Part shown: in pieces, positions 28,982-52,971 of the stretch | Layout of the letters: the number at the start of each line of letters is the position of its first letter | Position numbering within the stretch: the first letter of the stretch is position 1 | Assembly (NCBI GenBank): GCA_016342685.1 | Contig: JAEINU010000003.1 | Span: 372,001-436,000 of the forward strand | Source: Bacteroidales bacterium | GTDB lineage: Bacteria; Bacteroidota; Bacteroidia; Bacteroidales; UBA12077 | Direction of reading: 5' to 3' | Length of the DNA: 64,000 bases | Notes under the pieces: generated by a model | What the model was told of the DNA's origin: nothing | Databases searched by the model: none | The model's input: only the letters and a program-made list of their open reading frames with translations | Position numbers and translations under genes: made by a program

Positions 28982-29143
28982 ATGTTATATCTTATTATCT
29001 TATAGTTTTTTTGCAATTTTTTTGCAATTTTTTAAAATGTATTTTGAATTTAAACATATAACAATGCAAATAATATTTTGTTTAATGATTGGGGGTATTA
29101 TTTCTTTCTAAAAAATGAAGAGTTTTTATCTTTAAAAAAAGAA

Positions 29144-43422: not shown

Positions 43423-44031
43423 TTAATGCTTTATATTATGCCACAATGTGTTAACGATTTTCTCTTTAGTTACAGGGTTGTTGAAATCCAGATTTTTTTT
43501 ATCGCCGAATAGTTTTTTATAAATTTCATTATTAATTCTAAATACTTGATTGATTCGTCCAAATGATTCTTTTACAATTAAAAGATATGTGTCGTAGTTA
43601 TTTGAATTAGACGATGAGCTATTTATAAACTGCCCTAACTCCCGGCTTCTTTTAATAGAGATCTCATTTATTGGTTTCTTTTCATCAAGACCTTTGTAAA
43701 GAGGAATGAAGTTAATCATGTGCATTAACCAATCTTGAGAAAGATTTTTGGGAAGATAACCATTCTTCATATAGAACAATTCTTCGTTTACCAAACCAAG
43801 ATGATCTCTTACAAGAATTAATTGCTCATTTATTTTGTTGGGTTTTGTTTTGCATCTTTGTTGTTTTCTTAAAATATCTCGATGATCATCAATGCATTTC
43901 TGAACCGTCGAAAAATGGACTTCTTTCTTTTGAAATTTAAGAGTGATAAGTCCAAGATAAACCGCAATTAGAATAAGTATTTGTATACTTAATTCAATTT
44001 CGGGTATATAATTACGTATTATAAGTATCAT
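43423..44031 (-). CDS. Unrecognised membrane-anchored protein
   Basis: 202 residues with one N-terminal membrane helix (about 12-32, IQILILIAVYLGLITLKF), then a helical cytoplasmic domain (STVQKCIDDHRDILRKQQRC and IYKKLFGDKKNLDF). No motif is recognised. It follows the HAD lipoprotein gene by 14 bases and is the last gene of a three-gene operon with two exported phosphatases. Confidence 0.65.
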   Translation of the reverse strand: MILIIRNYIPEIELSIQILILIAVYLGLITLKFQKKEVHFSTVQKCIDDHRDILRKQQRCKTKPNKINEQLILVRDHLGLVNEELFYMKNGYLPKNLSQDWLMHMINFIPLYKGLDEKKPINEISIKRSRELGQFINSSSSNSNNYDTYLLIVKESFGRINQVFRINNEIYKKLFGDKKNLDFNNPVTKEKIVNTLWHNIKH

Positions 44032-44045
44032 AGCTTCATGTTTTT

Positions 44046-45098
44046 CTAATCAATAAAAATAGAATCTTGTTTAAATACTTTGCTCATATCCATTTTATTC
44101 CACTGATTTAATAGCATGATATTCTCAAAAATTCCAGTGTTCCATGTAGAATCATTATAATATGTATTATTCCAGTTCTTAGAAACATGCTTGCAGGTGT
44201 CAAATGGATTATATTCTGCTTCAAAGGTATCACTATCGTGATTTAGAAGCACACACATGGTTCTGTGGTGTTTGTTCGATGAGGTAAATGCAAACATATC
44301 AAAATCGTTTACTGTATTTCCAAAGGCGAAAATGGGCGTTTTATTAATCCGATTGTAAATGTTTGTTGATTTTCCTTTCGATGAATTACTTAAAAGAATG
44401 GTACTGTCCAAATAAAACTTAGTTCCGCCTTCTCGTGTGTAAACGATAGATTCGTAATTTGTTAACGAACCTATAATGTGTTGTCGATCAAAATCCAGCT
44501 CTTTTACATTTTGCACTACACCCCAAATAAATTGTTGTTCCGATCCCGATACAATATAAACATCGAATTCTTTTCGTTTTAAATACTGAATTAGTTCAAG
44601 CATTGGTTTATAAAACTGCTTACTTAAAAGTCTGGAGGTGCGTTGTGAGGTATCAACGGGAATGCATTTATTTCGAATGGTATCGCTTAGAAAAGCCGAT
44701 ATTTCTACAAATTTCTCAGAATCGAACTGCATATCATAAATAGACTTTTCAATATGCTTTTTAGTGGAATCATTTATAGCCGTTTCACAATTGGGTAAAG
44801 ACTTATACGCAAGATAATAAGCACATAACATTTCCATAGAAAGCGGGCGCTCGCAGGCAATGGTACCATCCATATCGAAAACGGCAATGCGATCTTCTAC
44901 TTGAACAAAATTTTTGGAATCCTTGCAGGTAACTGCATTCACAAAATCGATAATAGAGTAAATCGAAAAATCCTCAGGGTTTGTTTCTAAGGTGTCTTTC
45001 CACGACGACAATTCTAATTTTTCAAGATCCGTTAGTTTACAATTATCGCACGCCGAAAGTAAAATTGCTCCTAAAAGGATTAAGATAATTTTTCTCAT
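44046..45098 (-). CDS. HAD-superfamily phosphatase lipoprotein
   Basis: The lipobox is at residue 16 (ILLSACDNC). The HAD core is complete: motif I VFDMDGTIACERP (nucleophile and acid D-x-D), motif II IVSGSEQQF (Ser), motif III Lys region TREGGTKFY and motif IV FAFGNTVNDFDMF (D-x-x-x-D). It resembles phosphoserine-phosphatase-like enzymes with an inserted cap helical domain. Placement at the periplasmic membrane face, next to another phosphoesterase, suggests scavenging of organic phosphate or processing of a phosphorylated compound; that is an inference. Confidence 0.85.
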   Translation of the reverse strand: MRKIILILLGAILLSACDNCKLTDLEKLELSSWKDTLETNPEDFSIYSIIDFVNAVTCKDSKNFVQVEDRIAVFDMDGTIACERPLSMEMLCAYYLAYKSLPNCETAINDSTKKHIEKSIYDMQFDSEKFVEISAFLSDTIRNKCIPVDTSQRTSRLLSKQFYKPMLELIQYLKRKEFDVYIVSGSEQQFIWGVVQNVKELDFDRQHIIGSLTNYESIVYTREGGTKFYLDSTILLSNSSKGKSTNIYNRINKTPIFAFGNTVNDFDMFAFTSSNKHHRTMCVLLNHDSDTFEAEYNPFDTCKHVSKNWNNTYYNDSTWNTGIFENIMLLNQWNKMDMSKVFKQDSIFID

Positions 45099-45115
45099 TT
45101 TATTGGGGTTTTAAA

Positions 45116-46441
45116 TTATTTTTTCTCTTTTAAATCCAATGATATACTTTCAATATTACCATTCCCATATATAAATAATGGAGTTGGTTTACTTACATCG
45201 TCAATACCTACCCATCCGCCAGTATTGTATATCGATAAATTAAATTTAAGTGTGTATCCCATCAAATCATTTATATCTTTAATATATTGAACACTATCAC
45301 ATGGCACATGTGTATGACCATAAATTAGTGTATTAAATATCATATCTTCATCAAGCATTTGTCCTTGAGTATGTATTAAAAAAGAATCGACCAATTCGGG
45401 ATGCTCCAATAGTTTTTGAATATCGTTATGCTTGGTTCTTTTAACCTTATTTGGTTTTACAGGAAAAAGCTGAGGGTACTTCGCAACAAGTTTAAGATAG
45501 GTTTGATAATAGCTTGAATCTCCATACATTATATCATTTATACCTTGCGCTAAACCACCCATTGACTGAGCAATTGCATAATCGCTAAATTCGGTAAGTG
45601 GAGAGTTGTTTTTTTCAAGCTCACTAAAATAAACAGAATCATTTATGGACTCGCCAGGTTTACTAATATTTAACGAAGAATTGTTCCAGCCGGGTTCAAA
45701 AAAATGACCGTGAGTTACGCAAATATGCTTTGAATCTGTCTTTATGTAAAGATTTGGATAAGCAATATAAACCGGTTTTTTAGTATCACTTAAAATTCTG
45801 GAAAGAAAGTTTTTCTGTGGATCAGGAAAAATCACAGAATCTTTACTCATTGATCCTTTTTCTAAATCGAGTACTCCAATAATTTGCTGTTGCACTGGTG
45901 ATGCTATTCCGGTAAGTTCCATGCTATTCGATATGTAATATTGTTCCTGTAGCATTTTCCAAACATGATGATCGTGATTACCTGGAATATAGATTATGGT
46001 GTCAAAATAGGAGGTGAATGACTTGCCCTTGGAAATTGTTGTATCATTAAAAATAGAATGTGCCAGATTCATTGCATCACTTGAGTTATGCACAGCCATA
46101 TCGACTATATCGCCCATAAGAATAAGGTAAGGGATTCTGTTATTTTTCTTGCATTTTTCATCTAAAGTTTGAAATAGCTTCTTAACTTCCCTTCGATAAT
46201 AGATTTTTTCATTATTTACGGTAGTACTATCATAATATTTTTTGATAGAATCGTTTTTAGGCAGAACTTTTGTTACAGATCCATATACCTCACCAATATG
46301 GAAATCGCTAAGAAACATTGCTGCGGGAACGTCTATATTTTCAGAGTTTATTGTATTTACTTTATTGCTTTGAGCACAACAATTGTAAATGCTAATAAGG
46401 AACAAAAAGGTGCTTAGAAATAATAATTTAGCTAGTCGCAT
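45116..46441 (-). CDS. Exported metallophosphoesterase
   Basis: A signal peptide (LLFLSTFLFLISIYNCCAQ) precedes a 420-residue calcineurin-like enzyme with the motifs FLSDFHIGEVYG, LMGDIVDMAVHN, IPGNHDHHVWKM, THGHFFEPGW and IYGHTHVPCDS in order, all metal ligands present. Only 17 bases separate it from the HAD phosphatase gene, so the two enzymes are one operon and likely act on the same pathway. Substrate is unknown. The upstream region contains the decayed exonuclease. Confidence 0.88.
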   Translation of the reverse strand: MRLAKLLFLSTFLFLISIYNCCAQSNKVNTINSENIDVPAAMFLSDFHIGEVYGSVTKVLPKNDSIKKYYDSTTVNNEKIYYRREVKKLFQTLDEKCKKNNRIPYLILMGDIVDMAVHNSSDAMNLAHSIFNDTTISKGKSFTSYFDTIIYIPGNHDHHVWKMLQEQYYISNSMELTGIASPVQQQIIGVLDLEKGSMSKDSVIFPDPQKNFLSRILSDTKKPVYIAYPNLYIKTDSKHICVTHGHFFEPGWNNSSLNISKPGESINDSVYFSELEKNNSPLTEFSDYAIAQSMGGLAQGINDIMYGDSSYYQTYLKLVAKYPQLFPVKPNKVKRTKHNDIQKLLEHPELVDSFLIHTQGQMLDEDMIFNTLIYGHTHVPCDSVQYIKDINDLMGYTLKFNLSIYNTGGWVGIDDVSKPTPLFIYGNGNIESISLDLKEKK

Positions 46442-46471
46442 TTTCTTTTAGGTTTTAGGATTATCTTGTAA

Positions 46472-46642
46472 TTATTGCACGGACAACATGTCCGCACTAG
46501 CGGGGTATTCATTATTAGGAGGCTGAATTAATATGGAAACTTCTTTAACAATTTCTAAATTTTCAACTCTCACTAAACCAACTTGGCAAATACTCCATCT
46601 TGGTCCTTGAGCAGTTTCGACATCAATTGCTGTGAAATTCAT
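46472..46642 (-). pseudogene. Truncated DnaQ-type 3'-5' exonuclease
   Basis: The 56-residue frame starts MNFTAIDVETAQGPRWSICQ, the Exo I motif (D-x-E) and following strand of DEDD exonucleases related to DNA polymerase III epsilon, and runs through VGLVRVENLEIVKEV to IQPPNNEY. There the family sequence stops and the frame goes into a short-repeat element (TTGCACGGACA...TGTCCG), ending at a TAA. Exo II and III are missing, so it cannot be active. It lies immediately after the PD-(D/E)xK gene on the same strand. Confidence 0.72.
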
Positions 46643-46654
46643 AAAATGCTAGTT

Positions 46655-47686
46655 TTAAAAATTGCTAATTTCTTTTTCAATTAATTTATATTTATCCTTT
46701 ATGTCTTCTCCAGAATAAAAATCAAGTAGGTCCTTTTTAGTAAGTGTTCCATCGTTAAGGAATTTCTTCATATATTCTTGATTAAACTCCATTAATAACA
46801 TTGATTTTTCCAGTTGTTTTAATATTGCTTTATTATTCTCAATATTGTTTTCAACAAGAGATTTAATTGTTAAAATTTCATTAATGTCTTTAATAATTCG
46901 ATTAACAATTAATGCTAAAAGGTTTTTGTCCAAATCAACTTCTTTTGCATTTAAGGCAATGTCTCTTGCAAGCATATATGCTATTGCTAAGTTGGAATAA
47001 TCTCCTTTCTGTGAGTTAATAATTGCCACAAAACCAATTCCTGGTATATAACCCACATTTTCAAAGTTCTTTAATATTGAACTCTCAACTAAAGAAATAT
47101 CAAAAACAATGATGCTTACTTTGGAATCTCTATTAGCTTGAGTTTCTATTAATTGACTCCAAGCTGTGTCTGATTTTTTCGTAAATAGATCTTTACTCTC
47201 AATATTGCCAAGCCGAACACTCTTATCGAATTTACACTCAATTCCAATTTTTAAATCGGGAGAGCCATTCACTTCACAAATTATATCGCCTGTTTTATTC
47301 TTAGGAATATTTCCAGCAATATTTCCAGTTAAAAAGGCTTTGTCTTTAAGTTTCTTATCTGAAAAATATTGATTTAGAAATTCGGCTATTTCATCTTCTG
47401 CTAGAACACCTTTTATAGTTGACTTATAGAAAAGCTCTTTTTTCATTTCAAAGATCATCTTCAAACTTTCTAATTCTGTTCCCAATTCATTCGAAGTTTT
47501 TGAAAGGAAAGCAGAAATTCTATCTTCCATTAAAGCAAGTACACCAATGTAAATGGCACGAAGCAATTTTTCGTCTCGTTCCTTTGCAGGAAGATTATCG
47601 AAATAATTGAAAACTACTTGATTTTCAATTTCAAATTCTTTGATTTCGATTCGTTTAAGTTGTTGGTTGATTTTTATTGTAGACAT
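46655..47686 (-). CDS. PD-(D/E)xK nuclease-like protein, partner of the RloC-like ATPase
   Basis: 343 residues, soluble. A candidate PD-(D/E)xK core is in the middle: D134 in KTGDIICEV, then IGIECKF with E150-x-K152, a spacing of 15 between the acidic residues, followed by a strand-rich part (SKVSIIVFDISLV, GIGFVAIINSQ) and a helical C-terminus (LLMEFNQEYMKKFL). It starts three bases after the ATPase stop, the tightest link in the operon. The fold assignment comes from motif spacing and predicted strands. In known systems ATPases of this kind are paired with separate nucleases; a role as the second effector or a sensor is inferred. Confidence 0.65.
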   Translation of the reverse strand: MSTIKINQQLKRIEIKEFEIENQVVFNYFDNLPAKERDEKLLRAIYIGVLALMEDRISAFLSKTSNELGTELESLKMIFEMKKELFYKSTIKGVLAEDEIAEFLNQYFSDKKLKDKAFLTGNIAGNIPKNKTGDIICEVNGSPDLKIGIECKFDKSVRLGNIESKDLFTKKSDTAWSQLIETQANRDSKVSIIVFDISLVESSILKNFENVGYIPGIGFVAIINSQKGDYSNLAIAYMLARDIALNAKEVDLDKNLLALIVNRIIKDINEILTIKSLVENNIENNKAILKQLEKSMLLMEFNQEYMKKFLNDGTLTKKDLLDFYSGEDIKDKYKLIEKEISNF

Positions 47687-47689
47687 AAT

Positions 47690-49996
47690 TTATTTATTTA
47701 CCGCATTTTTTAAAGCTTCAAAATGTAACTTATCTTTTTTTATCTGTTTTATTAGTTCTTTACATGCAACAGGTATATCAGCAACAAATTCACTTTGTTT
47801 ACCAATTCTATCTATGTTATTAAAATGGCTAAAATAATGAAAAGGTTTACAGATTCTTTTTGAAATTTCAGAAGTAAATATTTTATCTGCTCTTCTATCC
47901 ACATTATCTGTACTAGGATATTTTGTAAGGGTATACATCTCTAGAAACCTTCTTAATATATTTGGAATTAGTAACAATTTCTCTGACTTAAGTGGTTTTC
48001 TTAGTATGCTAAAATCAAATATTTCTTTAAAAAGGTAATGATATTCTGATTTAAATTTATCTAAAATCAAAGGTAAAGGTTTAATTGTTGCTGTATTATC
48101 AACAAATGATCTTTCTATATAATATTTAGATTCCTTATTGGGCTTATCCATTGGCAATTCACGCATAAGGTTGAAAAATTCAAAATTATGCGTTGATAAA
48201 AAAAGTTGATTGCACTTTAATTTCCACTCATTACCAGGATTGTCATTTGTAAAGAAAACTTCTTTTAGCAATGAATTTATTTGAAAGACATGATTGCCGT
48301 CTAAGCTGGAGATTGGGTCATCTACAAAAATAATATAGTCTTTAAATTTTCCCTTTGATTCAATAGCTTTAATAGAAACTAGAAAATGAGAAAATGCAAT
48401 AGCTGTTTTCTCACCTTCACTTAAATTTGATGCATTCTCATTGTTTCTGAGTAGTTTAAACTGTTTTGTAGCATGATCTAGCTTAATTTCAATATCTTCT
48501 CGGTTCAAAAAACTTTGAATGAAATATGTGTATTGTAAAGCCCCCTCTTCATCACTAAATTTTTTGGACTCATAGAATAAAATCTCCTTATCAATTTCCT
48601 GAATCCTAGTATTTAATTTTTCAACTTCAACAAGGGCATTTTTATATTTCTTTTCTTTGAGATTGTATTTTTCACTTTTTAAAAATGATGCGACTAAATG
48701 GTTTTTATAAAATGTCCGTTCACTTTCAATTCTATGCTGAAATCCCTTGGTAAAATCGTTATTCTTAATAATGTGCTCATTAATCTGTTTGATAGAATTT
48801 ATTACATCTACGTTTTTAAAATCGAGTACATTATTGACACTTAAATAGAGAGATTTATTCAATTTGTTATCCAATTTGCTGAGTATTAGGTTCAAATGTT
48901 TCTTATAAGAACCTGTGATTTTATCAAATTGTTTTTTTAGAACTTTATATTCATCAATGTACCCCAAATTGAAGTCATTACTACTTGAAGGTATGTTAAT
49001 TGTCTTAATCTTGTTCTGTTCTTCAAAAATTAATTGTCTAACTACATCAACATCTTCTTTCAAATTTGCTGCTTGACTATTAAAGTACTTTGTTAGAAAT
49101 CTTATTCTATCTTCATTTATTATGTTGCCACAAAAAAGGCATTTATTATTAGCCTTATTAAGTTCTTGACCCTTTTTTACCCAAGAATATGCTTCAGTGT
49201 TTTTATCTAATATTTTATCTAATTTATTCTTATCAGGAATACTACTTAATATTTTATTAGTCTTTTCAATTATTTCAGAATATGAAAAATTAATTTGAAT
49301 TTCGTCAAGTTCATCCCTCGGTTCTTTTGTTATAACTATCACTCTTAATCGTGCAAGTTGTTTATTATTCCTAATAATATGAGTGGATAAGCTCTCTTTA
49401 ACTTTTGGGATTATATGTTTTAAGTTAGTTTTAGTAAAATCAATTATACTATCAAAGTGTTGATTTTTAATTTCTCTTGCCAATAGTGTAAACTTGCCGG
49501 AATTTGGTTTGTCATAAATTCCAAATTCTTCTATTTCATCTAGGAATTTATCTTTTTTACCAATTATGGACTCTGTTCCATTAATCGAATCTATTTCGGC
49601 TTGTAGGTTATTTATTTTTGTCTGATGTTTTACATTTTCTCCAACCTCAAATAAGATCGTCTTTGAATCTGAAATATCATCTTTGTGAATACTAAAATTC
49701 AAATTATCTTTAATGTAATCTGAATTAAAAACAAGTAAATCATATGGAAATAATTCAAGGTCACTTGAATCAAAATCACCATCAGATGTTTTTATTTTAA
49801 ATTTCCCTTTCTCATAACCTTCATGAATCTTTTTATCTCTTAAAGAACTGAATATTCTTGACAGTGTGGTTTTTCCAGAATAGTTCCAGCCATAAAAAAG
49901 GTTCTTATGATTAAAGTTTTTGATATCTAAAGATGTTGCCCAATTGAAATTCTTATAAATTCCAAATTCTTTTATTGATTCAATTTTCTTAATCAT
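47690..49996 (-). CDS. RloC/AAA_13-like ABC ATPase with zinc hook and anticodon-nuclease-like residues
   Basis: 768 residues. Walker A is G36-WNYS-GKTT; a coiled-coil region interrupted by a CLFC hook (C286, C289) spans about 110-510; the signature is LSEGEKTAIAFSHFL (about 525-539); Walker B and D-loop IIFVDDPISSLDGNH (about 553-567); switch His in LFLSTHNFEF. The C-terminal region has R682-x3-E686 and, 34 and 38 residues on, H720 and H724 (FHYFSHFNN), compatible with the Arg-Glu-His triad of PrrC and RloC anticodon nucleases. RloC senses DNA damage or phage and excises the wobble nucleotide of tRNA. Its start overlaps the KTSC-like gene by eight bases. Confidence 0.82.
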   Translation of the reverse strand: MIKKIESIKEFGIYKNFNWATSLDIKNFNHKNLFYGWNYSGKTTLSRIFSSLRDKKIHEGYEKGKFKIKTSDGDFDSSDLELFPYDLLVFNSDYIKDNLNFSIHKDDISDSKTILFEVGENVKHQTKINNLQAEIDSINGTESIIGKKDKFLDEIEEFGIYDKPNSGKFTLLAREIKNQHFDSIIDFTKTNLKHIIPKVKESLSTHIIRNNKQLARLRVIVITKEPRDELDEIQINFSYSEIIEKTNKILSSIPDKNKLDKILDKNTEAYSWVKKGQELNKANNKCLFCGNIINEDRIRFLTKYFNSQAANLKEDVDVVRQLIFEEQNKIKTINIPSSSNDFNLGYIDEYKVLKKQFDKITGSYKKHLNLILSKLDNKLNKSLYLSVNNVLDFKNVDVINSIKQINEHIIKNNDFTKGFQHRIESERTFYKNHLVASFLKSEKYNLKEKKYKNALVEVEKLNTRIQEIDKEILFYESKKFSDEEGALQYTYFIQSFLNREDIEIKLDHATKQFKLLRNNENASNLSEGEKTAIAFSHFLVSIKAIESKGKFKDYIIFVDDPISSLDGNHVFQINSLLKEVFFTNDNPGNEWKLKCNQLFLSTHNFEFFNLMRELPMDKPNKESKYYIERSFVDNTATIKPLPLILDKFKSEYHYLFKEIFDFSILRKPLKSEKLLLIPNILRRFLEMYTLTKYPSTDNVDRRADKIFTSEISKRICKPFHYFSHFNNIDRIGKQSEFVADIPVACKELIKQIKKDKLHFEALKNAVNK

Positions 49997-50207
49997 ATAA
50001 ATCTCTTACATATCTATTAACATATTCATTCAAACCCGAGCCATTTTCTGCTAAAACCTTCATTCGTTCAACATGCTTTTGTCCAGCTCTTCTATAACTA
50101 TATTTATATAATTTAATCGTTCCTTTAAATTTTATTCTAATATAGTCTTCACCAAGTTCAAAAGATGAAACTCCAGAATCTCCATTTCTATTTTTATACC
50201 TTTCCAT
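49989..50207 (-). CDS. KTSC-like small protein (second)
   Basis: 72 residues: KFKGTIKLYKYSYRRAGQKH then GSGLNEYVNRYVRDLY. The C-terminal part follows the KTSC pattern (Y-x-Y ... G-x-x-L/F ... Y-I/V-x-x-x-Y). I judge it a divergent relative of the upstream 69-residue KTSC protein. Overlap with the ATPase start shows coupled translation. A small partner of this kind could restrain the ATPase; this is inferred. Confidence 0.7.
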   Translation of the reverse strand: MERYKNRNGDSGVSSFELGEDYIRIKFKGTIKLYKYSYRRAGQKHVERMKVLAENGSGLNEYVNRYVRDLYD

Positions 50208-50214
50208 GTTTCAA

Positions 50215-50424
50215 CTAAAGTTTAGTATAACTATAAACATCTTTTATATACTGATGGAAGTAACTTCCATGTGAATTGGCATTCATTAATCCTGAATGAA
50301 CATTAGATGGCACGTTTGCATATTGATATACACCACCGTGATTAAATTCAATTTCAAGAGTTTTACTATTAGCATCATAGCCTACTGCAGCTAGATTGGA
50401 TGAACTTACGCTTTCTCTGTACAT
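50215..50424 (-). CDS. KTSC-domain protein (first)
   Basis: 69 residues forming one KTSC domain (named for the C-terminus of some lysyl-tRNA synthetases): VSSSNLAAVGYDANSKTLEI, FNHGGVYQYANVPSNVHSGL, SHGSYFHQYIKDVY. It starts an operon whose third product resembles a tRNA anticodon nuclease, seven bases before the second small gene. A tRNA-related recognition or inhibitor role is an attractive but unproven reading. Confidence 0.85.
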   Translation of the reverse strand: MYRESVSSSNLAAVGYDANSKTLEIEFNHGGVYQYANVPSNVHSGLMNANSHGSYFHQYIKDVYSYTKL

Positions 50425-50489
50425 AATGATTTATTTTTAGGGTTAATAATTAATTTAGTATTTATGTAATTCTCATTTACTTTTTAATA

Positions 50490-50696
50490 TTAACTATTAT
50501 GACACTCATTACAACAATAATAGCATCCATCGACAGTAGAATAAATTGTTTTTGCAGTTTTCACAGCATCAAAACAAGTATAAAAATCACCTAATAAAAT
50601 CCTATTCTGCTCTTCTGGCATATGTGTGCATCCAGATTTATGCACTTCGTGATCCCCATTTGATTGAGGATTTTTGTTTACATAGTAATCTGCCAT
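50490..50696 (-). CDS. Small Cys/His-rich protein
   Basis: 68 residues beginning MADYYVNKNPQSNGDHEVHK. Six cysteines and several His (SGCTHMP, FYTCFDAV, DGCYYCCNECH) give a C-x2-C and C-x-C-type cluster suited to zinc. ATG 50696 is chosen because this start matches the compact domain; the upstream in-frame ATG adds 16 residues. It lies 65 bases before the KTSC gene on the same strand, so it may belong to the same operon. Similar small proteins are common in bacteria; no function is known to me. Confidence 0.72.
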   Translation of the reverse strand: MADYYVNKNPQSNGDHEVHKSGCTHMPEEQNRILLGDFYTCFDAVKTAKTIYSTVDGCYYCCNECHNS

Positions 50697-50744
50697 AATC
50701 ATTTCTTTTTGGGTTAACAACACATCATATTGCAATTTTTGCAA

Positions 50745-51317
50745 TATGTATTTTTAATATTAATGTAAATTAATACTCCGATTTCGAGTTCAGAAATGTG
50801 CGTTTTAAACGGTAGGTGAGGATGAAATTAAGTATAATATGTTAAACTGCAAAATATTGGGTATCAATAATAAAAGACATTTTTGTGGCTTATCAGATTG
50901 CAGGTAGGCGATGCGTTACTAGTTAAATGTTCACTTTGTGTACTTAAAACTCAAACAGGGTAGTGTGTGTGGGTTTTTGTAATGTCAAAATATTTTGGTT
51001 TTTTGTAGGTGGAGCGAGGGTGAAAGTTTTTTTTTGATTGTGTATCCTTTGACAAGCTCAGGATGACATTTTATTATCTTGTTGTTCACCCTTCGACAGG
51101 CTCAGGATGACGTTTTTGTTATATGTGTTATACATCCTTTGGCAAGATCAGGATGACATTTTATTCTATGGTTATTCATTCTTTGACAGGCTCAGGATGA
51201 TGTTTTCATTATATGGTTATCTATCCTTCGACAGGCTCAGGATGACAAAGGGCAGTCTTTATTTTTTGTATTTACAAATTGAGATTACATCCGTGTAAAC
51301 GGGAGGTTTAAAAAAAT
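50745..51317. other. Repeat-bearing non-coding region
   Basis: About 570 bases without a gene. Left part shows no feature; the right part (51046-51246) holds the five-copy tandem repeat. A + strand frame through the repeats (SFDRLRM repeated) is a by-product of the repeat and not a gene. Confidence 0.6.
51046..51246. repeat. Five-copy tandem repeat, period 44-46 bp
   Basis: Copies of CCTTCGACAGGCTCAGGATG-type sequence begin near 51046, 51090, 51136, 51180 and 51225, each followed by 22-24 bases of variable, T-rich sequence. Two copies carry AAG in place of AGG and two are slightly changed. Related fragments (TTGAGCTTGTCGAA / TTCGATAAACTCAA) occur as an inverted pair near 58105-58165. Confidence 0.8.
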
Positions 51318-51551
51318 CTAACTCAACATTCGAGCTACCTGATCCTCAATAATTGCTTTAAACTCATCGCAGCAAGCATTAATATGAATAAAATAGGTGT
51401 TAGGTGCATCAAATACTAATTTAAAATCAGCATTTTTATCGTGTGTTTTGCATTTAATCTCGGATATGTTTGCCGAAATAATCGAACTGTATGTTTGTTC
51501 TATTGATGGTTTTGGTTTTCCATCTGGATTCTGAAATACTATTTTATTCAT
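51318..51551 (-). CDS. Small unrecognised protein
   Basis: 77 residues, acidic, with KTHDKNADFKLVFD and INACCDEFKAIIEDQVARML. No signal or motif is recognised; the CC near residue 60 is notable. It begins 75 bases after the KAS III-like gene on the same strand. Confidence 0.55.
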   Translation of the reverse strand: MNKIVFQNPDGKPKPSIEQTYSSIISANISEIKCKTHDKNADFKLVFDAPNTYFIHINACCDEFKAIIEDQVARMLS

Positions 51552-51626: not shown

Positions 51627-52700
51627 TTACATTTTATAGATTAGGGCATTAATATTCATTCCTGCACCAACAGATGTAAAAACCACTGTGTCGCCTTTAT
51701 TTATTTTGTGAGATTCTAATTTACCTTTTAAGATAATATCTAATAAAGTTGGAATGGTTGCTACCGATGAATTTCCTAACCAAGGAATTGTCATAGGCAT
51801 AACATTTTCGGGTAAATCAGTAATGTTGTAAAGTCGATAAAGTCGTTTTAAAATGGCCTCGTCCATTTTTCCATTTGCCTGATGAATTAGCACTTTCTTT
51901 ATGTCGTTAATGTGCATATTGCATTTGTCGATACAATCTTTTACAGCTTGCGGAACTGTTTCCAGCGCATATTGATACAATTTTCGACCATTCATTTTCA
52001 AATAATACTCCTTATTATCTGGATTGTACGATTTGCCCATGAATAACATTTGGGAATGTAAAAATGTATCGGATCGAGTTTTATGAGCCAGAATTCCAAT
52101 TGGCGTATCGCTTTCTTTGGCTTCCAGAATAACAGCTCCGGCACCATCGGCATACAACATGCTATCTCTATCGTGCGGATCTGAAACTCTCGATAATACA
52201 TCGGCTCCAATTACTAGAATTTTTTTAGCATCACCCGATTTTATGTAGTAATCGGCCTGAATAACTGCTTGCAACCAACCCGGGCAACCGAAAGGTAAAT
52301 CGTAAGCTACCGTGTTGGGGTTTTTAATTTCTAATTTAAATTTTACTCTGGCCGCTAGGCTAGGTACAATATCTAATTGTTTATTGTCGGTTTTTACATC
52401 GCCAAAATTATGCGCAACAATAACATAGTCTAAATCTTCTTTATCGATATTTGCCGATTTTAGGGCTTCAAGAGCCGCATAATGTGCAATATCTGATGTT
52501 GTTAAATCGTCGGTAACATAGCGTCTTTCTGCAATAGTTGTAATTTCCAGAAATTTATCTATTATTTCTTGATTCGATTTTTCGAGTTTAGTTCCATCAT
52601 TGTCATAAAACTCAGTGTTCAAAAAATCTTCATTTTTGATTTGTCTTGTTGGAAGGTAATTACCTGTTCCTGTAATAATGCTATATATCTTTGTGCCCAT
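51627..52700 (-). CDS. Ketoacyl-ACP synthase III (FabH-like)
   Basis: 357 residues with the thiolase-fold catalytic triad: Cys in PFGCPGWLQAV, His in LIHQANGKMDEAI and Asn in WLGNSSVATIP. It condenses an acyl-CoA primer with malonyl-ACP. The longer frame (start 52733) adds eleven residues before MGTKIYSIITG; ATG 52700 is chosen because it places the first strand as in FabH. The FabH house-keeping gene is usually near plsX/rpmF, which are absent, so this may be a specialised paralogue, perhaps starting branched or secondary lipids. Confidence 0.9.
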   Translation of the reverse strand: MGTKIYSIITGTGNYLPTRQIKNEDFLNTEFYDNDGTKLEKSNQEIIDKFLEITTIAERRYVTDDLTTSDIAHYAALEALKSANIDKEDLDYVIVAHNFGDVKTDNKQLDIVPSLAARVKFKLEIKNPNTVAYDLPFGCPGWLQAVIQADYYIKSGDAKKILVIGADVLSRVSDPHDRDSMLYADGAGAVILEAKESDTPIGILAHKTRSDTFLHSQMLFMGKSYNPDNKEYYLKMNGRKLYQYALETVPQAVKDCIDKCNMHINDIKKVLIHQANGKMDEAILKRLYRLYNITDLPENVMPMTIPWLGNSSVATIPTLLDIILKGKLESHKINKGDTVVFTSVGAGMNINALIYKM

Positions 52701-52971
52701 ATCTGAAGTTCTGAAAATTTGGTATGTAGCCAATTTGTTCTTTTATCATCAATTGGCAAGGATGAGGTTGAGTGGATAAGTATATAAAATACTCGTATTT
52801 AATTATTTTAAAGATAACAAAATTAACGAGTAATAGTTTTAGATTACTCTTTATTGTAATTTATTCCCAAATCAGCCTTAGAGTCAGAAATTTAAGAAAC
52901 GAAATACATCTTAAATCGCTGTCGTTTTCTAAATCTATAATCAATAATTCGGAGTTGTTTATTCATAATCT

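Follow-up and report, generated by a model that had tools for sequence, protein, structure and literature searches.

Several described defence systems bear on the locus considered here. PrrC is regulated by a linked restriction-modification protein (PMC3874168, PMC2610378), and RloC is switched on by double-strand breaks via a DNA-break-responsive ATPase (PMC3874168). Pairs of a metallo-β-lactamase-fold (MBL) nuclease and a protease are, according to a 2025 report, recurrently acquired by the Hachiman, AVAST, Lamassu and DRT systems (PMC12799240), and operons of HerA, a KTSC protein and an endoDNase are mentioned as an unpublished remark in a 2022 paper (PMC9503650). The locus described here lies in a 64,000-nucleotide stretch of DNA (hereafter the window) from the Bacteroidales contig JAEINU010000003.1, positions 372,001 to 436,000. 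RloC is usually described as a single gene, whereas the RloC-like ATPase of the window is accompanied by a gene for a PD-(D/E)xK nuclease-like protein (hereafter the nuclease), a KTSC gene and a further small gene, K2 (Table 1). We find that this locus is modular: its 3' gene, the nuclease, stays constant, whereas the partners in front are exchanged in place.

An earlier note on this DNA had read the four genes as a candidate defence operon that could not be assigned to any named system. Four minus-strand open reading frames (ORFs) are indeed found where it placed them, with gaps of 7, -8 and 3 bases, and their composition as an RloC-like ATPase, a PD-(D/E)xK protein and KTSC is borne out by Pfam and PADLOC profiles and by motif. 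The order KTSC-K2-RloC-nuclease also recurs in two related loci (L030 and L049). The claim of novelty stands in part: no PADLOC protein model matches the nuclease, KTSC or K2, but the ATPase taken alone matches its candidate PDC-S06. Neither K2 nor the window's nuclease matches a curated family above cut-off in PADLOC, Pfam and NCBIfam profile searches, and none of the four genes matches a PADLOC profile of Gabija or Septu (GajA-GajB, PtuA-PtuB) at E <= 0.1. In a literature search with thin coverage of subscription journals, we found neither this four-gene set nor a description of the nuclease or its shared use. What does not survive is a fixed four-gene system: the partner gene changes across related loci, the ATPase being exchangeable and the PD-(D/E)xK gene constant and common to SIR2-HerA, OLD-type and other ATPases. 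The locus is accordingly read here as one case of a nuclease module that is shared and has exchangeable partners, and no longer as a new four-gene system.

Exact peptide patterns of the window's protein, scanned against 84,980 species genomes, recovered 71 nuclease loci, 60-89% identical to the window's; as the patterns were exact, relatives below about 60% identity may be missed. The loci are mostly from Bacteroidota, with others in records named Omnitrophota, Cloacimonadota, Aminicenantes, Ignavibacteria and Parcubacteria; in addition, the nuclease occurs on a Paracoccus plasmid. Since many of them are metagenome bins, the host names outside Bacteroidota are unsure, except for a complete Omnitrophota chromosome (L071) and the Paracoccus plasmid. 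A viral contig (L074), found in a scan for two exact peptide patterns, also carries the nuclease; a phage origin was considered and rejected, since a search of 50,697 phage records at E 0.01 gave no match and this is the one viral contig.

The nearest upstream large gene was taken as the partner, labelled from BLAST clusters and family scans of cluster representatives, and partners were counted over 72 rows, namely the 71 loci and the window (Table 1). Seven partner classes have at least two rows each, and P-loop ATPases of the SMC, RecF/OLD or HerA type make up most of the partners. SIR2-HerA with KTSC is the commonest partner (26 HerA and 26 SIR2 genes in the 71 loci). Rows with HerA fragments (L005 and L017), a split SMC-like gene (L009) or a 56-residue RloC remnant (L045) were counted as other, and the membrane-protein label of cluster C15 was assigned by eye. 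Two loci (L025 and L037) have two cassettes stacked before one nuclease, SIR2-HerA-KTSC and then K2-OLD; in L025 the OLD-type protein also matches GajA (best 1e-22), less strongly than it matches Old (9e-73). Whatever the partner, the gap between the nuclease and its upstream gene lies within -30 to +30 bp in 61 of 69 loci, as against 26 of 68 for the downstream gene, and this tight upstream and loose downstream spacing indicates that the nuclease belongs to the preceding gene.

Some loci add further context. Between the OLD-type ATPase and the nuclease, L053 (4246-5991) and L061 (4293-5993) encode a UG39-type defence reverse transcriptase (RT), profiled in L061. No recognised partner stands close in front of the nuclease in L048, L067, L068 and L069, where the gaps run from 110 to 881 bp; upstream lie a large Eco57I/ResIII-type protein in L068 and an AAA protein in L069. 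Five loci (L045, L051, L053, L057 and L061) have type I restriction-modification genes next to the module or on both sides of it, identified by profile in L057 and by BLAST cluster in the rest. The prrC gene is itself located inside a type I restriction-modification locus.

Table 1. The four genes of the window's locus, with their coordinates, and the partner classes found in front of the nuclease (all minus-strand positions are those of the window)
Feature	Position	Strand	Length (amino acids)	Rows (of 72)	Remark
PD-(D/E)xK nuclease-like protein	46655..47686	-	343		ORF; constant gene of the module
RloC-like AAA_13 ATPase	47690..49996	-	768		ORF; exchangeable partner
K2 small protein	49989..50207	-	72		ORF; possibly KTSC-like
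KTSC-domain small protein	50215..50424	-	69		ORF; PF13619
HerA preceded by SIR2				24	partner class
RloC-like				13	partner class; includes the window
OLD-type ATPase-TOPRIM				12	partner class
SMC-like ATPase + second, membrane-looking gene				4	partner class; best PADLOC match of the ATPase LmuB, 7e-6
PDC-S46				3	partner class
Second kind of SMC-like ATPase				2	partner class
RT UG39 behind OLD-type gene				2	partner class
AlbA_2-KTSC				1	partner
Other partners				6	
No partner				5	

Replacement of the partners is directly visible where flanks are shared. L041 and L042 occupy the same chromosomal site, with flank genes of 65-90% amino-acid identity and nucleases that are 95% identical, yet their partner genes share only 32% (SIR2), 41% (HerA) and 40% (KTSC) identity. 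Likewise, L022 and L024 share their flanks, K2 (86% identical) and the nuclease (93%), with RloC and OLD partners respectively, and the nucleases of L021 and L024 are 94% identical against 24% for their OLD proteins. DNA similarity resumes no more than about 15 bp from the nuclease start in 12 of 13 pairs, which were chosen and not random; in L068/L069 it resumes 138 bp before the nuclease. A nuclease tree was built from 68 of the 72 rows (L055, L056, L072 and L073, with fewer than 330 amino acids, were dropped; 28 of 65 inner branches are open). On this tree the partner label requires 38 changes, where shuffled labels require 39.5 on average and 57 of 200 shuffles are as low; the branches with good support already imply at least 10 changes for RloC (12 rows), 8 for HerA and 7 for OLD. 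The closest nuclease relative belongs to another partner class in 36 of 58 rows, and nuclease identity is 0.772 within and 0.764 between partner classes (58 rows; 185 of 1000 shuffles as large).

The resumption of DNA similarity near the nuclease start, and partner labels close to random on its tree, could also be produced if the nuclease were a homing-like or recombination-promoting gene that drives cassette exchange and adds nothing to defence. We consider this improbable: plain gene replacement would likewise make similarity resume at a gene boundary, and strong amino-acid constraint extends over the whole protein, with its peak in the N-terminal helical part, where 33 of 79 columns are invariant as against 28 of 118 in the nuclease core. 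Together with the tight spacing to the partner, this whole-protein constraint points to a working complex, and the N-terminal helical region may hold a self-interface or an interface to a common partner.

The putative active site of the nuclease (E97, D134, E150, K152, Q178) is identical in 72 of 72 sequences including the window's, so that the PD-(D/E)xK reading holds by motif (E...D...ExK...Q). Among 46 aligned members, 14 match the Pfam family PDDEXK_15 (best E 1e-6), which the window's own protein does not match in the Pfam search, and 10 match phrog_244 (best 5e-5), whose annotation is RusA-like resolvase. In 17 of the 46, GMP_synt_C also appears as a sub-threshold hit (best 0.0084), which was set aside as a chance match to an unrelated family. 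An AlphaFold2 model from the 46 sequences (predicted local distance difference test, pLDDT, 73.5; predicted template modelling score, pTM, 0.46) has a β-β-β-α-β core, preceded by a long helical region at the N-terminus and followed by a long C-terminal helix. Among the first Foldseek hits of this model are BamHI, EcoO109I, EcoT38I and MspJI, but no hit reaches E <= 0.001, so that the main grounds for placing the protein in this fold are its motif and the profile hits; a search of the nuclease profile against PDB chains returned no sequence relative.

The nuclease is old yet strongly constrained, and no other part of the locus changes as slowly. Over 2278 pairs, amino-acid identity has a median of 0.76, at a fourfold-site identity of 0.34 that marks saturation; this rules out recent spread as the cause of the high identity. 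The partners have median identities of 0.45 (HerA), 0.39 (SIR2), 0.49 (RloC) and 0.28 (OLD), and the small genes of 0.49 (KTSC) and 0.58 (K2), all with fourfold-site values of 0.35-0.38. When the same locus pairs are compared, the nuclease is the more conserved in 43 of 45 pairs for RloC, 264 of 325 for HerA, 310 of 325 for SIR2 and 78 of 78 for OLD. Effectors of such defence systems usually diverge quickly, which speaks against the nuclease being a second, independent effector that destroys phage (and host) DNA beside the partner's toxicity, with the partner perhaps activating it. One nuclease would, moreover, need control by partners as unlike as HerA and RloC. Such a role is fairly unlikely on these grounds, though it would account for the identical catalytic residues and has parallels, both in DUF4297-HerA, where an ATPase activates a PD-(D/E)xK nuclease by assembly (PMC11291478), and in the MBL nucleases, which are repeatedly added to unrelated systems and cut DNA indiscriminately (PMC12799240).

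The window's ATPase matches PF13166 (AAA_13) with E 1.8e-92 over residues 10-738, in a numbering one below that of the full protein, which is used for all other residues here; in PADLOC it matches PDC-S06 (E 5.9e-126) and PrrC (2.1e-12). When the RloC-type proteins of related loci are aligned (11 rows, two of them C-terminal remnants), the invariant residues include the P-loop G41-K42, the zinc-hook CxxC cysteines C286/C289 (in all 9 of the 11 rows that span the site), L525-S-E-G-E529, D559/D560, R682, E686 and H724. The Walker A/B motifs, ABC signature and CxxC hook noticed earlier are thus confirmed and conserved, while of the C-terminal R-x3-E plus histidine arrangement R682, E686 and H724 hold and H720 is not in the invariant list. 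The protein resembles RloC and PrrC in having ABC motifs, CxxC and the R-x3-E...H residues, and the last of these we take to be a putative anticodon-nuclease catalytic triad. A second, more distant PDC-S06-like ATPase (E 1.2e-42) is encoded elsewhere in the window's genome (G000 C5:139471-141327), in which the nuclease profile has one match only.

The KTSC protein of the window matches PF13619 with E 6.7e-27. The KTSC profile matches two solved structures, the KTSC protein 7x8c and the HerA chain of 8wiv, which ends in a KTSC domain; the same fusion occurs in L026, and the structures 8wld and 8woc contain a KTSC-ended HerA together with a SIR2 chain. The domain has been called DNA-binding (PMC9503650) and RNA-binding (PMC7824862). 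K2 has no Pfam or PADLOC match and a weak NCBIfam match (E 0.026), and in an hhalign comparison with KTSC it reaches a probability of 28% (E 6e-4), which is only suggestive of a relationship. Its AlphaFold2 model (β-β-β-α-α, pLDDT 80.8) has no PDB fold match at E <= 0.001, and the solved KTSC protein is not among the fold matches listed, so that a kinship of K2 with KTSC is unsupported by fold. Of the 71 loci, 17 have the K2 cluster (C4), and in 55 KTSC, K2 or WYL-like small genes lie at most six ORFs upstream of the nuclease, the WYL-like labels being sub-threshold Pfam hits with an hhalign probability of 94% between the two clusters. Beside the module, KTSC is also found fused to a PIN-like domain (L017:938-1909) and to an AlbA_2/HATPase protein (L007:1922-3775). 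The idea that the small genes serve defence alone was rejected, as K2 and KTSC relatives on plasmids occur in other settings too. On an Arcobacter plasmid (L124, 1-8773), a K2 homologue stands among mostly uncharacterised genes with an SbcC/MukB-like protein.

The partners in turn are often found alone. A PDC-S06-like ATPase (E <= 1e-30) occurs in 31 of 395 Bacteroidota genomes, of which only the window's own also has the nuclease, and a profile search of the 395 gave four nuclease matches, including the window's own and one fragment. KTSC is present in 74 of these genomes; of 30 KTSC loci examined, 12 adjoin HerA (several from one genus, two near contig ends), and 2 of those 12 have the nuclease. 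SIR2-ATPase-KTSC operons without it are also annotated on Rhizobium and Pseudoalteromonas plasmids. As most of the sampled RloC-like and HerA-KTSC loci are without the nuclease, it is an optional add-on. On one Pseudoalteromonas plasmid (L128, 5001-5772), a SLATT-domain gene follows SIR2-ATPase-KTSC in the nuclease's place, and the position behind KTSC may thus be open to effectors in general.

An optional part of this kind, facultative across otherwise similar HerA-KTSC operons and placed directly downstream of likely toxic genes at near-constant spacing, could be a brake or proof-reader that removes partner-activating DNA and so limits accidental toxicity in healthy cells. We regard this as unlikely, as similar partners live without the nuclease: the HerA proteins of four nuclease-free loci (L094, L101, L102 and L104, the last three of which look like near relatives of each other) are 60-66% identical to nuclease-linked HerA. 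Three loci (L013, L038 and L045; two of the three are metagenome bins) combine a truncated RloC-type ATPase with an intact nuclease gene, the N-terminal part missing in L013 and L038 and only the first 56 residues kept in L045; this speaks mildly against a pure antidote.

That one nuclease-like protein is kept behind varying likely defence machines suggests a common trigger or partner for many defences. RloC is activated by breaks, and most other partners are ATPases of the SMC, RecF/OLD or HerA type, from which we infer that the nuclease supplies or shapes a DNA signal and the partner the toxic answer. Our tentative preference, somewhat short of an even chance, is accordingly that the PD-(D/E)xK protein might be an activating nuclease that various ATPase-based abortive defences have in common. 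In an infected cell, the nuclease would cleave or process foreign or replicating DNA, and the DNA ends, or the nuclease-DNA complex, would activate the DNA-sensing ATPase encoded beside it; small proteins (KTSC, K2 or WYL-like) might act as nucleic-acid or partner adaptors. The toxic output would depend on the partner class, being tRNA cleavage by the RloC-like protein in the window's locus, NAD loss with SIR2-HerA and nucleic-acid cutting with the OLD-type TOPRIM proteins. The invariant catalytic residues, the seven partner classes and their nearly random spread over the nuclease tree, the in-place swaps and the tight upstream spacing all favour an activating nuclease.

Several points weigh against it. 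The HerA label taken alone is somewhat more clustered on the nuclease tree than chance would give (15 changes against a shuffled mean of 20.0, a value as low being reached in 3 of 500 shuffles), some loci have partners other than these ATPases (AlbA_2-KTSC in L015, PIN-KTSC in L017, RT in L053 and L061), and the fold matches to known nucleases are weak, with a best E of 0.02. RloC has been argued to need no outside DNA-cutting (restriction-modification) partner in its host (PMC3874168), and we only infer that OLD-, HerA- and SMC-type partners respond to DNA ends. The absence of the nuclease from 30 of 31 genomes with a PDC-S06-like ATPase and from 10 of 12 KTSC-HerA loci means that it is unneeded for activation generally, and the sparing of self DNA is left unexplained by the model. 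A bolder form of the activating role, possible but doubtful, would make the protein a general licensing nuclease, a plug-in trigger arming structurally unrelated ATPase-based suicide systems. Thus, tRNA cutters, NAD destroyers, TOPRIM nucleases, SMC-like and RT-containing systems might all be armed by one trigger, which would be preserved while the toxic cassette is replaced in place as phages adapt; the constraint on the nuclease would then come from recognising a conserved infection product and itself, and not the partner.

The surroundings of the window's locus were also examined. A cysteine-rich ORF of 84 amino acids (Orf84, 50490-50744, minus strand) lies 65 bp upstream of KTSC; it was rejected as an operon member, as its relatives in L011 and L030 are not adjacent to KTSC. 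Downstream of the operon, genes for HAD-type and calcineurin-type phosphatases occupy 44046-46441 on the minus strand, and the 441-amino-acid phosphatase flank gene was found in none of the others of 19 genus genomes searched. A FabH-like flank gene (51627-52733) has orthologues in the window's genus, and in the four regions examined beside these none of the window genes from 43423 to 50744 is present; nearby in L146 are relatives of the window genes at 29078 and 59167. An empty insertion site in the genus, looked for via the FabH-like and phosphatase flanks, was not demonstrated. No SIR2 or HerA Pfam match was found among nine window proteins from 43423 to 51551.

As a general pattern, many defence-type ATPases are accompanied by one conserved, unnamed nuclease-like protein. 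Were this protein a common trigger, it would explain how unrelated systems can be rewired without new sensors, it would offer a sequence handle for new partner systems, each gene in front being a candidate, and what activates RloC-, OLD- and SIR2-HerA-type systems would become directly testable. Among known systems, SIR2-HerA with KTSC, solved in 8wld and 8woc as SIR2 together with a KTSC-ended HerA, is the commonest partner of the nuclease, but the nuclease matches no PDB chain; moreover, ten of twelve KTSC-HerA loci of Bacteroidota show no nuclease, whereas the Paracoccus plasmid and L074 have it. DUF4297-HerA is alike in that a PD-(D/E)xK nuclease works with a HerA ATPase (PMC11291478); in the available account, however, that nuclease is itself the HerA partner in a two-gene system, whereas the present one is additional to SIR2 and also follows non-HerA ATPases. 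In the operons remarked on in PMC9503650, an endoDNase, not named in the available text, replaces the sirtuin, whereas the nuclease described here occurs together with the sirtuin, as well as with other ATPases. The MBL nuclease-protease pairs come closest as a precedent, by which recurrent acquisition of a nuclease by unrelated defences is already known: there likewise, one nuclease family, in pairs with a trypsin-like protease, is shared by and moves among unrelated defences (PMC12799240). The four operon genes have no Pfam match to an MBL-fold nuclease or a trypsin-like protease. The present nuclease is of a different superfamily, with no protease among the partner representatives scanned, and, as far as the available portion of that report goes, it differs further in standing 3' of its partners where the MBL gene is typically 5', and in having its partner replaced at fixed sites.

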